Source: Myxococcales bacterium | Lineage (GTDB): Bacteria > Myxococcota_A > Polyangia > Polyangiales > Polyangiaceae | Assembly: GCA_903642325.1 (NCBI GenBank) | Contig: CAHJWM010000019.1 | Location: 1 to 64,000 of the forward strand | Reading direction: 5' to 3' | DNA length: 64,000 nucleotides | Shown here: in pieces, positions 29,808-39,144 of the stretch | How the letters are laid out: every line of letters begins with the position of its first letter | Position numbering within the stretch: position 1 is the stretch's first letter | The notes under the pieces: model-generated | What the model was told of the DNA's origin: nothing | The model's input: the letters and a program-made list of their open reading frames with translations, nothing else | Database searches by the model: none | Position numbers and translations under genes: made by a program

Positions 29808-31253
29808 TCAGGAAGAGAGGGCCCGTTGAGCCTGGATGGGCCGCGCGCAGGCTAGCTCTGCAATCGCGTCGATGTCGTAATAGCGGCACGCTTCCATGAG
29901 CATGCGACATTCGGTCCAAATGTCGCCATCGACCATGGGCATGAACAGATCGTGGACGTTGTCCACTCCAAGGTAGCATTGAACGCCTGCGCTTCGCAAT
30001 TTGGGATAAGGCGCTATCGAGTTGTGCAAGGGGGCGTTCATGGGCAGCTGCTTCATGCTCAAAGCTGCGGAAGGGCAAATGATGATGCCCAACTGCGCTT
30101 CCACTACCTGTTCGATGATCCGATCTTGTTCGCGTTCTTCCTTTGCGCTGACCGAGATGGCATGGACACCGAATACGCGGCCTTTCATGCCGTGCTCGAT
30201 CGTCTTCATCGCCAAGAGCTCGGTCTCGCTCTCGTTGGGATTGTTTTCCTGGTCGACGTGCACGTCGACCGGTTTGCCGAGTTTTTTAGCGAGCTGAAGC
30301 ACTACATCCAAATGTTTTTCCGGCTGCAGATGATCCCTCGAAGGAAGACCGCCGCAATAGTCCGCGAGTGAACAAGCCTCCGCATACTGCTCGTATGACG
30401 CCGGCTCGAGCACACCCTGTAACGGCTGCACCCCGACTTCGAGCGTGATCTTGTCGGCGTAACGCCGCTTCACCTCGACCGCGGCTCGAATGGGCAGCAA
30501 GCCCACCGTGCTATCGGCATCGACCATGGTTCGGCAATAGGTCACCCCTTGCTGGATCATCACGTCGACACCCCGCGAGATCCGCTCGATCAGATCATCG
30601 TAGGTGTAATTCTCCTTGAGATATCGGTAGAGCTCCCATTTCTTGCGCATGTCGACCTGACTCAACCGCAAGTTCTCTGGCGTGATGAGATATGCCTTGT
30701 CGAAATGGGCGTGATGGCTGGCGAGGCCCCCGAGGCGTTCCGCGTTACTCAAGAATTGAAGCTTGAGATTCCATGGCTCGGTGCCGCTGGCAATTCGATA
30801 TCGGTAGGTACCACCTTCCGCGTCTGCCACTACTTTCCCGAGCGTGGCAATAGCGACGTCGCAATCGGTGATCAAAGGGATGCCACCCTCGATCGAAAGC
30901 TTACGGATCAGCTTGGCGTCGGACGTCTCGTCGTAGTCCTCATCACCCGTCAAGATGTTGATCACGAGGTCGAAGCGATCTGCTTTCAAGAAGCCGAGGA
31001 TATTCGGGGAGCGCCCGTCGGCAATCTTGTGGATTTCGTTGCTGCTCACCCGGTTCTGGGCCAGATAGCGATGCGTACCCGGCGTCGCATACAAGTCCAC
31101 GCCGAGGGCCAGTAGCGGAAGTATCGCCGGCAACATTCGGCTCTTATCCGTCTCCCTGCCCGCGCTCACCAAGACCTTTTTGCGGCTTCTCGAGCCGAGG
31201 AGCTTCAGGTTGAAGGACAACATTTCCAGCGATGTTGCTGTCGGCATCGTCAT
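29808..31253 (-). CDS. MGS-like domain fused to cytosine-deaminase-like amidohydrolase
   Basis: 481 residues with two domains that are normally separate. Residues about 25-140 match the methylglyoxal-synthase-like fold found at the C-terminus of carbamoyl-phosphate synthase: VLVSAGRETDKSRMLP, LGVDLYATPGTHRYL, RPNIL-like SPNILGFLKADRFDLVIN, and GIPLITDCDVAIATLG. Residues about 175-475 are a metal-dependent hydrolase of the cytosine deaminase group: HxH in HHAHFDKAYLI, VDVHVDQENNPNE, FGVHAISVS and LGVDNVHDLFMP. The MGS part may sense a nucleotide or phosphate ligand that controls deamination or ring opening by the other. The frame extends to 31298; the ATG at 31253 has AGGAG well placed. Confidence 0.88.
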   Translation of the reverse strand: MTMPTATSLEMLSFNLKLLGSRSRKKVLVSAGRETDKSRMLPAILPLLALGVDLYATPGTHRYLAQNRVSSNEIHKIADGRSPNILGFLKADRFDLVINILTGDEDYDETSDAKLIRKLSIEGGIPLITDCDVAIATLGKVVADAEGGTYRYRIASGTEPWNLKLQFLSNAERLGGLASHHAHFDKAYLITPENLRLSQVDMRKKWELYRYLKENYTYDDLIERISRGVDVMIQQGVTYCRTMVDADSTVGLLPIRAAVEVKRRYADKITLEVGVQPLQGVLEPASYEQYAEACSLADYCGGLPSRDHLQPEKHLDVVLQLAKKLGKPVDVHVDQENNPNESETELLAMKTIEHGMKGRVFGVHAISVSAKEEREQDRIIEQVVEAQLGIIICPSAALSMKQLPMNAPLHNSIAPYPKLRSAGVQCYLGVDNVHDLFMPMVDGDIWTECRMLMEACRYYDIDAIAELACARPIQAQRALSS

Positions 31254-31379
31254 GGTTGCTCCTGCATGGCCCGATGGATATACCACGCGACATGCCAACC
31301 CTGGGCCCTTCCCGCCGCGCGGCCCTGAACGCCCGGCCGACCCCCCTGTAAACGTAGCCGGTCGGGAGGTAGCGGCCGA

Positions 31380-31769
31380 CTACGCGCGAACGGACGCGGC
31401 GGGTTTGCCGAATAGGGTGCGTAGCTCGTCTTTCGCGCGCTCCAGCTTGCGGCGCTGGCTGGCTGAAATGTTTTTGCCGCCCCGGTTGATGTAAAACGTC
31501 AGCATGGAAATCGCGGCTCGATAGGGCGGTGACTTCCGTCGGTTGCTGCGCTCCGCCGACCGTTTGATTGACGCGGCAATGGCGCGTGCACTTCCCTGCT
31601 TGAAGACATGGTCTTTCAGATCCATGGCGTCGCTCGTTTCGTTCACCCGTTGCGACCACTTCTTGGTGGCGGGGGGGCGCTTGGCCTTTTTGCGCACGTT
31701 GCCAGCTCGCGTAGGGCTGGGCTTTCCGGGGGCTGTAGTCTTACTGGGGCGCGGCTTTTCGATCGTCAT
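31380..31769 (-). CDS. DUF3175 protein
   Basis: About 129 residues, very basic. After a Lys/Pro-rich N-terminal tail come KKWSQRVNETSDAMDL, IAASIKRSAERSNRRK, YRAAISMLTFYINRGGKN and LERAKDELRTLFGK, the DUF3175 signature in order. The family has no known function; basic charge and small size suggest nucleic-acid binding. The ATG at 31769 was preferred over one at 31784. It lies 31 bases downstream of the large hybrid kinase on the same strand? No: the kinase gene ends upstream at 31816, so the two form a tandem pair with the kinase transcribed first. Confidence 0.9.
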   Translation of the reverse strand: MTIEKPRPSKTTAPGKPSPTRAGNVRKKAKRPPATKKWSQRVNETSDAMDLKDHVFKQGSARAIAASIKRSAERSNRRKSPPYRAAISMLTFYINRGGKNISASQRRKLERAKDELRTLFGKPAASVRA

Positions 31770-31815
31770 GAGCGCGTAACGCATGCATTACGAATGCCAG
31801 CGCTCAGCAACGCCT

Positions 31816-36304: not shown

Positions 36305-37255
36305 CTAGCCGAGAGGGATTTCAAAACCGACCGGGGCCCGATTGCTGACTTCCGACAAACGGCGGAGCTCGTCGGCGCTGAGCTCGAGGTTGGCGGATTC
36401 GAAGAAAGGACGGAGATGGTCGAGGGTCCGCGCGCTTGCGATCGGCGAACCCACCATGGGCTGGGCCCGTAACCAAGACAGCGACACGGCCGCAAGAGCG
36501 ACGTCATGCGCGTCCGCGATCTCGTCCAACAGCGCGAGCAGGGAAACGTTGCGTGGCTCGTCGAGATAAACACTCGCACCTCGTGCACGGGCCGAATCGA
36601 CAACGTTACCGGGACGGTACTTACCGCTCAAAAAACCAGACGCGAGTGAGTAGTACGGTAATTCGGTTATGCCCTCTTTTTTCAGGGTCGGCAGGAGCGT
36701 GGTCTCGATACCGCGCTCGACCAGGCTCCAGGGATCCTGCGAAAACTCAAACGCGGCCAGGCCGTTTTCACGACTGAGCCGTAACGCAGACGAGAGGCGC
36801 GGGGCGCTGAAGTTGGACGCGCCGAGCGCGCGAACTTTGCCCTCCCTCACCAGCTGATCGAAGGCTCGCAAGTATTCCTCCTGCGGCACACTCGGGTCAT
36901 CCTCATGAGCGTAGTAAAGGTCGATATAATCGGTACGTAGGCGACGTAGAGAGCCCTCGATCGCGGCCTGAATGTTGGCCGTCGAAAGCCCTGGCTGGCG
37001 CTGCCACTTGGCGACTTTGGTCGCGATTTTAACGCGCGTTCGCTGACCGCGCGCGGCCAGCCAGTCGCCGATCAGTTGCTCGGATTCACCGCCCTCTCGC
37101 CCGGCGGCCCAAGCCGGGTAGACATCGGCGGTATCGATCGTCAGGCCGCCGTAGTCGACGAATGCGTCGAAGATATGGAATGCCGCTTCGCGCTCCACGG
37201 TCCAGCCGAACACGTTCCCGCCCAGGATCACGGGGCCCATCGCGCTATTGGTCAT
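36305..37255 (-). CDS. aldo/keto reductase
   Basis: Cytoplasmic NAD(P)-dependent oxidoreductase of 316 residues. The tetrad is in place: Asp in TIDTADVY with Tyr, Lys in IATKVAKW, and His in YYAHEDD. GKVRALGASNFSA, LPYYSLASGFLSGKY and VGSPIASARTLDHLRP are the remaining conserved blocks. The type resembles the YajO/Tas group of general stress reductases. Its ATG overlaps the stop of the metallophosphoesterase gene (ATGA), so both proteins should be made from one message in similar amounts. Confidence 0.95.
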   Translation of the reverse strand: MTNSAMGPVILGGNVFGWTVEREAAFHIFDAFVDYGGLTIDTADVYPAWAAGREGGESEQLIGDWLAARGQRTRVKIATKVAKWQRQPGLSTANIQAAIEGSLRRLRTDYIDLYYAHEDDPSVPQEEYLRAFDQLVREGKVRALGASNFSAPRLSSALRLSRENGLAAFEFSQDPWSLVERGIETTLLPTLKKEGITELPYYSLASGFLSGKYRPGNVVDSARARGASVYLDEPRNVSLLALLDEIADAHDVALAAVSLSWLRAQPMVGSPIASARTLDHLRPFFESANLELSADELRRLSEVSNRAPVGFEIPLG

Positions 37256-39144
37256 GCACCGTCGCTAGCACTAGACGGCACGTCAGGCGATAGTGGCGCG
37301 TTTGCGCACGTACTCAGCACCTCGAAGATCAATGTGAAGGAATTGCTCCGATTGTCTGCCGCCCGCAACGTCATTGTTCCGAGCTCGAAGGGTGCCCCCG
37401 GAGCCTCGGAGACGCGCGGCAAAAACATGAAAGCCCAGGGCATGGCGTCGTCCGGGTCGAAGTACGAGCCAAGGTCCCGTTCGATGGCGTGGCACCACAG
37501 CTCACCATCCAGCGCGGGATCGACGGTCAGCGTGCTGCCCAGGGGGACCACCTGACCGTTTCGCACGCCTCGTTGCTCTGAATGCAGGCTTACGTGATCG
37601 ACGCCGAAAAACAACGTCAGCTCGGCACCGTTGCGAGAGTCGCCTTCGTCGATGCGCTCGATGCGGCACTCCGAAAAATGGACGCGCTGCTTTACGGGAA
37701 ACGAGGACTCGGGCCTGACACTATCGGTGATGTCGACCGAGAACATCGGTCCGAAATCTTCGGCCATGAGGTGGCCGGTCCAGGTTTCGAAGCGGCGTCG
37801 ATCGCCGCTCGCGAGCTCGCTATCCTGGTAACAAAAGACCATCGTGTAGCCGCGTAAGCGCCCGAATGTGCCGCCCTCCCCCGCGTCGAGCCGCGTGCGC
37901 CACGTGCCGGTATCGAGAAAATACGCTTCGCCCCCGGGGGCTCCGAGTTTGCGTTGCCCCGGTAATGCAACGTGGTCAGGTTGGTGGGTGTGGCCGGCGA
38001 TGACGAGGTAGACGTCGCCCGAGTCGAGATCGAGCTCGGCCTGCGCTGTTCGCGAGGGGCGGCCGGTTTCGCTGTGACTCATCGCTACCTCGAGCACGGA
38101 GACGAGCTGGGCCATGTGATGGGCGGAGCCGCTGTTCATGAAAAGCTTGATCAACTCTGCGACGGGCGACAGCAGCCCGCTCGCGAGCCCCGCGACCTGA
38201 GCCATGAAGAAGGGATCGTGCTGAACGCTCTCGACGACGTCGCGCAGCACCGGCCGGAGGATCTCGAACGTGCGACGCTCGCTCGCCCCCACGTAGTCGA
38301 TGAGGTAACGCACGATCATGCTCTGTGGGCGCACGTCGTCGAACTCTGTGAGCGCGGCATAGATGCGCCGGTAGGGCTCCCCAGGTACGCCCGGAACGCG
38401 CAGCTCGCGCGCATAAAAGACGCGAAACGCCAGAGCTAACCTGGTCGCGACCTCGACCGTCGCGCAGTCACCGAAGGTTGGCTTGTCGTAAGCCAAGCTC
38501 GCCGAAGGGCGCTTGGGATCGAACGGCTCGGAAAAATTCGCCGGGTCGTATTCGTGACCGTGCCGGATGCGAACGCCATATCCCGCGGCCCGCTTCCACT
38601 CGAGCTGGTGCGGGAACGGGGCGTCGGCAGGCACCAGTCCGGTGCCCAGGCACAGCAGCCGACGAACGCGCTGACGGGTGGAGGGCCAAAGCTGGCACAG
38701 CCGATCGTGATTGCCGGGAATGTAATGCGTGACGACGATGGCAGGCCGAGCGCCAGCGTGACCGCCGATGCCTCGCTTCACGAACTCCCTCAGGGTGTCG
38801 AAGAAGTCCTGATTATCGAGCTCAATCGCGCTCAAGATCTCGTGCACCTTGGCTTCGAGCTCTAAAGACTCCGCCCCCGGGTGCACGGTCGGACGCCGAG
38901 TCTCACCGTTCGAGAACCAGAGTGGGGTACGGTGCAGCTCGAAGATGTCTCCAGCGAGCACGAGCTGCACGTCGGTCGCGCCGGAGCGCTCTACGTTCTC
39001 CGTGATCTCGGCGAAGAGCAAGGAGAGCGCGCCAGCGTTCACGTTTCGGACGACACGGGTCTCCAACACCCGCCCGTTCTCGTTCCGCCGAATGACGTCG
39101 TGCTTCGTGTGCTGCAAGTGTAAATCGCTGATGACGACAATCAT
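37252..39144 (-). CDS. metallophosphoesterase with extra C-terminal domain
   Basis: 630-residue calcineurin-like enzyme, far longer than a minimal phosphoesterase. Metal-binding motifs appear in order: SDLHLQHTKH (residues 6-10), LAGDIFELH (about 65), PGNHDR, RHGHEYD and AGHTHQPDH. A helical insertion of about 200 residues lies between GNHD and the last GHTH motif. From about residue 450 a beta-rich region (VHFSECRIERIDEG, DGELWCHAIERDLGSYF, FELGTMTLRAADNRSNSF) looks like a separate C2- or jelly-roll-like domain I cannot name. It could cleave phosphodiesters in nucleotides or lipids. It is coupled to the aldo/keto reductase by ATGA. Confidence 0.9.
   Translation of the reverse strand: MIVVISDLHLQHTKHDVIRRNENGRVLETRVVRNVNAGALSLLFAEITENVERSGATDVQLVLAGDIFELHRTPLWFSNGETRRPTVHPGAESLELEAKVHEILSAIELDNQDFFDTLREFVKRGIGGHAGARPAIVVTHYIPGNHDRLCQLWPSTRQRVRRLLCLGTGLVPADAPFPHQLEWKRAAGYGVRIRHGHEYDPANFSEPFDPKRPSASLAYDKPTFGDCATVEVATRLALAFRVFYARELRVPGVPGEPYRRIYAALTEFDDVRPQSMIVRYLIDYVGASERRTFEILRPVLRDVVESVQHDPFFMAQVAGLASGLLSPVAELIKLFMNSGSAHHMAQLVSVLEVAMSHSETGRPSRTAQAELDLDSGDVYLVIAGHTHQPDHVALPGQRKLGAPGGEAYFLDTGTWRTRLDAGEGGTFGRLRGYTMVFCYQDSELASGDRRRFETWTGHLMAEDFGPMFSVDITDSVRPESSFPVKQRVHFSECRIERIDEGDSRNGAELTLFFGVDHVSLHSEQRGVRNGQVVPLGSTLTVDPALDGELWCHAIERDLGSYFDPDDAMPWAFMFLPRVSEAPGAPFELGTMTLRAADNRSNSFTLIFEVLSTCANAPLSPDVPSSASDGA

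Follow-up and report, generated by a model that had tools for sequence, protein, structure and literature searches.

A protein encoded in the window, a 64,000-nt stretch of a Myxococcales genome, very probably replaces both aspartate carbamoyltransferase (ATCase, PyrB) and dihydroorotase (PyrC) in de novo pyrimidine synthesis and supplies dihydroorotate. It joins a methylglyoxal synthase (MGS)-like domain to an amidohydrolase, and its gene is found almost only in genomes that have neither enzyme and keep the later steps of the pathway, for which reason dihydroorotate is its probable product. Beyond this pattern of co-occurrence, the claim draws on a stand-alone form of the hydrolase in an operon with a pyrE-like gene, a broken pyrBC junction, the predicted folds and a set of invariant residues. 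The features of the gene are as follows.

29808..31253, minus strand: whole gene, 481 aa, MGS-like domain plus CodA/AtzC-type amidohydrolase (open reading frame, profile matches, homologues)
31253, minus strand: ATG start codon, with the stop codon at 29808-29810 (reading of the open reading frame)
31259..31263, minus strand: Shine–Dalgarno-like AGGAG a few bases 5′ of the ATG (sequence)
30816..31178, minus strand: MGS-like domain, residues 26-146, of the type of the carbamoyl-phosphate synthase (CPSase) allosteric domain (PF02142 and structure model)
29847..30770, minus strand: amidohydrolase domain, residues 162-469 (NF005365/PRK06886; profile and fold)
30957..31166, minus strand: putative UMP/IMP-site stretch with S30, K37, T57, T60, K76 and N99 (alignments to E. 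coli CarB)
30696..30713, minus strand: metal motif H181-A-H183 and K186, the latter at Lys65 of AtzC and Thr66 of CodA (alignment)
30249..30260, minus strand: metal ligand H332, with D334 and Q335, the latter in the slot of CodA Glu217 (alignment)
30162..30164, minus strand: H364, at the position of catalytic His246 in CodA and His249 in AtzC (alignment)
29958..29963, minus strand: metal ligand D431 and N432, aligned to Asp303-Asn304 of AtzC and Asp313-Asp314 of CodA

Both halves of the protein were recognized by profile searches. PF02142 (MGS) matched residues 42–129 (E 1.1e-12; 48.3 bits versus a cut-off of 24.1), PF01979 (Amidohydro_1) scored above its cut-off, and NF005365 (PRK06886), a model named 'hypothetical protein' in NCBIfam, covered residues 162–469 (E 3e-131; 437.3 bits versus a curated cut-off of 340). 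No match to the transcarbamylase domains PF02729 and PF00185 was found with Pfam. AlphaFold modelled residues 1–150 with a pLDDT of 82.9 and the full-length chain with a mean pLDDT of 77.6 and a pTM of 0.63, at which the placement of the two domains relative to each other is unsure. The best match of the N-terminal model was the MGS domain of E. coli CPSase (Z 16.5, rmsd 2.5), with methylglyoxal synthase (MgsA) at Z 14.5 and PurH at Z about 10, and the best matches of the model of residues ∼154–481 were cytosine deaminase (Z 34.8) and AtzC (Z 33.9). Dihydroorotase was absent among the best structural matches listed for the hydrolase part, which is no evidence either way. An earlier sequence-only reading of the gene had described an N-terminal MGS domain of the CPSase type and a C-terminal hydrolase resembling cytosine deaminase. 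The profile match and the models agree with both: the N-terminal part is predicted to take the MGS fold, with CPSase as its closest match, and cytosine deaminase is the closest structure to the remainder. The motifs quoted in that reading (LYATPGTHRYL, DLVIN, GIPLIT, VHVDQ and LGVDN) are all present in the protein, the HxH motif being HHAH.

Within the MGS part, S30, K37, T57, T60, K76 and N99 align to S948, K954, T974, T977, K993 and N1015 of CarB, which we take to be its UMP/IMP contacts, and all six positions are invariant in our alignments of the fused family. Their retention would fit UMP feedback at the putative committed step, and we infer that the domain may bind UMP (or IMP) and exert end-product control as on CPSase. 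The allosteric domain of the CPSase large subunit thus has the fold and the six nucleotide-site positions in common with the fused protein, but it lies at the C-terminus of CarB, whereas here it precedes the hydrolase at the N-terminus.

The metal ligands of the hydrolase part (H181, H183, H332, H364 and D431) are invariant in 34 sequences and are those of amidohydrolase subtype III (mononuclear; HxH, H, H, D); position 186 is K or R in all. Fused proteins and their stand-alone relatives are 33–36% identical and have all metal ligands in common, together with D185, D245, D247, Q276, D307, D334, Q335, N337, E343, E345, H410, N411, N432 and D435, D334 and Q335 being invariant across both forms. 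CodA, which recognizes cytosine via Gln156 and Glu217, is alike in fold and metal ligands but differs from the window protein at all four active-site positions compared, Thr66, Gln156, Glu217 and Asp314 being replaced by K186, L278, Q335 and N432, respectively; L278 and Q335 are invariant. Cytosine deaminase models scored 61.8–87.3 bits on the fused protein, far under their cut-offs of 403–483. We reject a role as cytosine deaminase in view of the replaced residues, these low scores and the genomic context.

AtzC, the N-isopropylammelide isopropylaminohydrolase, was compared as well. It differs from CodA at Lys65/Thr66 and Asn304/Asp314 (PMC4577212), and the fused family shows the AtzC state at both positions (K or R at 186, N432). 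The likeness extends to the subtype III metal site, the HxHxDK motif and the Asp-Asn pair of strand 8, at an overall identity of 23%. On the other hand, His219, Gln160 and Trp309 of AtzC correspond to Gln335, Leu278 and Phe437 of the window protein, and AtzC is without an MGS domain. The combination of an MGS regulatory domain and an amidohydrolase-fold enzyme in one chain is familiar from CAD, which acts in early pyrimidine synthesis. The present hydrolase is of the CodA/AtzC type rather than the dihydroorotase type, however, and the chain includes no CPSase or ATCase domain; the three activities of CAD are CPSase, ATCase and dihydroorotase (PMC8508918).

A scan of 84,980 species genomes yielded 21 loci with homologues. 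The full fusion is present at 51–80% identity in all of them except L020, where the MGS domain is missing, and L016 and L022, where it is partial. Carriers include Hyphomicrobium, Rhodomicrobium, Magnetospirillum, Caulobacter sp. SLTY, Phycisphaerae, Desulfobacterales, Deltaproteobacteria, Campylobacterales and a Terriglobia metagenome-assembled genome (MAG); the isolates among carriers of either form are H. zavarzinii ATCC 27496, Hyphomicrobium sp. LHD-15, two Rhodomicrobium, Caulobacter sp. SLTY and Turicimonas muris YL45. The fusion defines an old family, conserved across six phyla or more, and since fused homologues (full or partial) occur in 19 other loci, it is neither an assembly accident nor coding by chance. 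Proteins with both domains, which the sequence-only reading had suggested listing, therefore exist, and no described family was found among them. The fused gene was present in 6 of 249 sampled genomes from the order of H. zavarzinii, and among the 59 genomes nearest to that of the window the only real match was in the window's own genome, one other being 20% identical. In the tree, the window protein nests inside an alphaproteobacterial clade (support 97/98), and its gene has a GC content of 0.57 compared with 0.63 for the window, which together point to horizontal acquisition. Misassembly or contamination of the contig is an unlikely source of the gene, as it would leave the missing PyrB and PyrC unexplained and the neighbouring genes are of host-like GC. 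No carbamoyltransferase was found beside the fused gene in the window. Across genera the gene has no conserved neighbours, synteny being confined to Hyphomicrobium, so that the fused form has no operon partner; the only arg or pyr genes detected by tblastn in the flanks of the fused loci were an ornithine carbamoyltransferase (OTC) gene at L002 and the remains of pyrBC at L010.

We searched carriers, controls and non-carriers for the two enzymes. No match to TIGR00857 (dihydroorotase type I) at E ≤ 1e-20 was obtained in 14 of 17 fused carriers, among them the window's genome. Two Phycisphaerae carriers have only sub-threshold matches, of which at least one copy in each adjoins a PreA-like gene, and the PyrC of the Terriglobia carrier (G065) is truncated at its 5′ end; hence none of the 17 has an intact PyrC. 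Type II dihydroorotase was absent from all carriers tested. By comparison, TIGR00857 had a match in every one of the 14 control genomes, as well as in 58 of 58 relatives of the window's genome, seven of these relatives being from the same genus. For TIGR00670 (aspartate carbamoyltransferase), none of 20 fused carriers scored over the cut-off, as against 14 of 14 controls and 58 of 61 non-carriers. T. muris (G074), the one stand-alone carrier in which PyrB and PyrC were tested, likewise gave no TIGR00857 match and no TIGR00670 match over the cut-off. Close relatives show the same contrast: the window's genome is 98.97% complete and has neither enzyme, genomes of its genus have both, and PyrB is kept in 27 of 29 relatives tested; similarly, the control Caulobacter vibrioides has both and the carrier Caulobacter sp. 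SLTY neither. The association of PyrB loss with carriage has a Fisher P of 6e-15 (21 carriers including G074, with G065 counted against the claim), in a test that ignores shared ancestry, the carriers spanning at least six phyla. Most carriers are MAGs of unstated completeness and the absences come from profile searches, so that any single absence is weak. Three non-carriers (G013, G018 and G104) are also without PyrB, and PyrB loss must therefore have other causes too.

The weak TIGR00670 matches in carriers turned out to be ornithine carbamoyltransferases by motif or model. Of four carrier carbamoyltransferases run against NCBIfam, three passed the cut-off of TIGR00658 and the remaining one (L048) that of NF011379. 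The DxxxSMG and HCLP motifs of OTCs (PMC6022934) are present in nearly all the others. The L048 gene (L048:1489-2421), the sole carbamoyltransferase found in its genome (G069), is without the ornithine motifs of OTCs, reading HDMP for HCLP, though NF011379 (PRK14804) denotes an OTC, and it may use a different acceptor.

The later steps of the pathway are retained. Among 19 fused carriers tested, 17 gave strong PyrD matches (≥180 bits), as did G074, whereas only a weak, PreA-like match was obtained in the two Phycisphaerae carriers. Each of the 18 carrier genomes tested for PyrE had a match of that type; it exceeded the cut-off in 11 of them, with a model that misses its own cut-off in 4 of 14 controls. 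Keeping PyrD and PyrE speaks against a switch to salvage. What looks like real pathway loss is seen in G018, which has neither PyrB nor a PyrD match. This genome is 100% complete and probably belongs to a pyrimidine auxotroph; G013 and G104 keep PyrD. These observations bear on the role proposed in the sequence-only reading, that of a self-regulated nucleobase salvage or degradation enzyme. In such a role, a deaminase acting on cytosine or a related base under UMP control could allow cells to live without de novo synthesis. Cytosine deaminases are indeed the closest structures, and PyrB and PyrC could be dispensable to an organism dependent on salvage. However, the carriers keep PyrD and PyrE, unlike G018, the residues that recognize cytosine are replaced, the stand-alone form is paired with an orotate-type phosphoribosyltransferase, and Hyphomicrobium grows on mineral medium. 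With the replaced residues, the sub-cut-off models and genomes that point to de novo synthesis, we consider this role highly improbable and the idea of a nucleobase salvage or degradation enzyme not upheld; what survives of it is nucleotide self-regulation, which is reasonable in view of the six invariant CarB positions. In the two Phycisphaerae genomes (G066 and G067), no canonical PyrD was found, and the PreA-like one lies beside a dihydropyrimidinase-like gene.

The Terriglobia locus L010 (G065) offers a view of the proposed replacement at the sequence level. Its gene order is pyrR, a pyrB fragment, three unrelated genes, the fused gene and a clipped pyrC, with one segment standing out.

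L010, 4658-12146: low-GC segment of four genes, inserted in pyrR-pyrB-pyrC

The inserted segment has a GC content of 0.53–0.57, compared with 0.61–0.65 for the pyr genes. The pyrB gene stops after 203 codons, with most of the Asp/Orn-binding domain gone, and pyrC is without the first ∼15 codons of its relatives. With this pyrB truncated, an intact PyrB is missing from every fused carrier tested. The fused gene lies at the very place where pyrB breaks off and pyrC is clipped; a misassembly may be the cause, but one at this point would be a remarkable coincidence. The other genes of the segment encode a TIR-like protein without a Pfam match, an unknown protein and a protein with a weak methyltransferase match.

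NF005365 members without the MGS domain scored above the curated cut-off in 40 of the 67 genomes searched from Sutterellaceae, the family to which T. muris belongs. The Sutterellaceae members that we read are stand-alone hydrolases of the same family as the window protein, which adds the MGS domain, and in all 30 loci read a pyrE-like gene follows 13–87 bp downstream in the same orientation. The partner is an orotate-type phosphoribosyltransferase by its best model, PRK00455, although under that model's cut-off; TIGR00336 gave 97.9 bits versus a cut-off of 106.8. T. muris has two orotate-phosphoribosyltransferase-like genes (L145:7686-8360 and G074:C16:157916-158470), the one in the hydrolase operon being of the lower-scoring type.

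The most conservative role for an amidohydrolase in this setting is that of a new, unrelated dihydroorotase, with carbamoyl-aspartate coming from an unrecognized ATCase or a promiscuous OTC and the MGS domain as a UMP sensor. The absence of PyrC in carriers, the cyclic-amide amidohydrolase fold and the pyrE operon of the stand-alone form would all agree with it. It does not account for the joint loss of PyrB and PyrC in all carriers tested: the fused gene is not accompanied by another conserved gene and arrived alone in the window's genome, the transcarbamylases of the carriers are of the OTC type only, mostly one each, and no dihydroorotase model (TIGR00857 or TIGR00856) matches the fused protein in NCBIfam searches at E ≤ 10. 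We therefore regard it as rather unlikely. Much less likely still is a bifunctional protein whose MGS domain binds carbamoyl phosphate and acts as the ATCase while the hydrolase acts as the dihydroorotase. One gene coinciding with the loss of two enzymes would be explained directly, MGS folds bind small phosphates, and Y107, D108 and E109 are further invariant residues of the MGS part. Yet T. muris, in which only a hydrolase without the MGS domain was seen, is also without PyrB, the MGS part keeps the nucleotide-site residues of CPSase, and we know of no MGS domain that transfers carbamoyl groups.

We instead favour replacement of both steps by the fused protein. If one transferred gene, with no linked carbamoyltransferase, makes up for two lost enzymes, its substrate must hold both the carbamoyl carbon and aspartate. 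Argininosuccinate, which is known to close to cyclic anhydrides, is a candidate. In the proposed route, ArgF would load carbamoyl phosphate onto ornithine to give citrulline, ArgG would join citrulline to aspartate, and the resulting argininosuccinate would close to a six-membered cyclic form. The hydrolase domain would then cut the exocyclic C–N bond to ornithine, much as AtzC hydrolyses a ring C–N bond and releases an alkyl amine (isopropylamine from a triazine). The products would be dihydroorotate for PyrD and PyrE and ornithine for recycling, and one added gene would bypass two enzymes. The AtzC-like K186 and N432, the OTC-type transcarbamylases, the presence of ArgG (19 of 20 fused carriers and most stand-alone carriers), the extra OTC gene adjoining the fused gene at L002 and the short distance between argG and pyrE (no more than about 2 kb) in the two Phycisphaerae carriers are consistent with this chemistry. 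ArgG was not found in G068 or in the stand-alone carriers G335 and G372, and in some other genomes it is in pieces (missing or fragmentary in the stand-alone carrier G324, for example), the assemblies being fragmented. ArgF and ArgG are common anyway, so their retention is not decisive. Against the chemistry, the route would cost an extra ATP-to-AMP conversion per pyrimidine, position 335 is Gln in contrast to the His of AtzC, and the G069 carbamoyltransferase deviates from the ornithine motif of OTCs. Replacement of both steps through argininosuccinate with UMP control by the MGS domain has, in our estimate, at best an even chance of being right, and the wider picture, in which a pathway without ATCase and dihydroorotase runs via argininosuccinate and a UMP-controlled aminohydrolase whose gene spreads between phyla as a pyrBC replacement, is somewhat more doubtful. 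At the Phycisphaerae loci L182 and L183 (G066 and G067), an SDR gene accompanies argG next to the divergently transcribed pyrE.

Full-text searches of the literature returned no description of an MGS-amidohydrolase fusion, of a pathway without PyrB and PyrC, or of a reaction from argininosuccinate to dihydroorotate. If the proposal is true, it adds a new route to an essential metabolite whose early steps (carbamoyl phosphate, carbamoyl-aspartate, dihydroorotate) are generally taught to be almost universal, in Hyphomicrobium, Rhodomicrobium, a Caulobacter strain and, without the MGS domain, gut Sutterellaceae. It would also explain the apparent pathway gaps in carrier genomes, assign a role to a family now labelled hypothetical, make a one-gene complementation test possible and represent a clear case of a single transferred gene displacing two unrelated ancestral enzymes.

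Two other genes of the window are worth recording. Immediately 5′ of the fused gene and in the same orientation, positions 31380-31784 (minus strand) encode a DUF3175 protein that shows no sign of belonging to the system. Further away, positions 37252-39144 (minus strand) encode a 630-aa protein with no Pfam match at 1e-5 and a phosphoesterase-like start (SDLHLQH, GNHDR).
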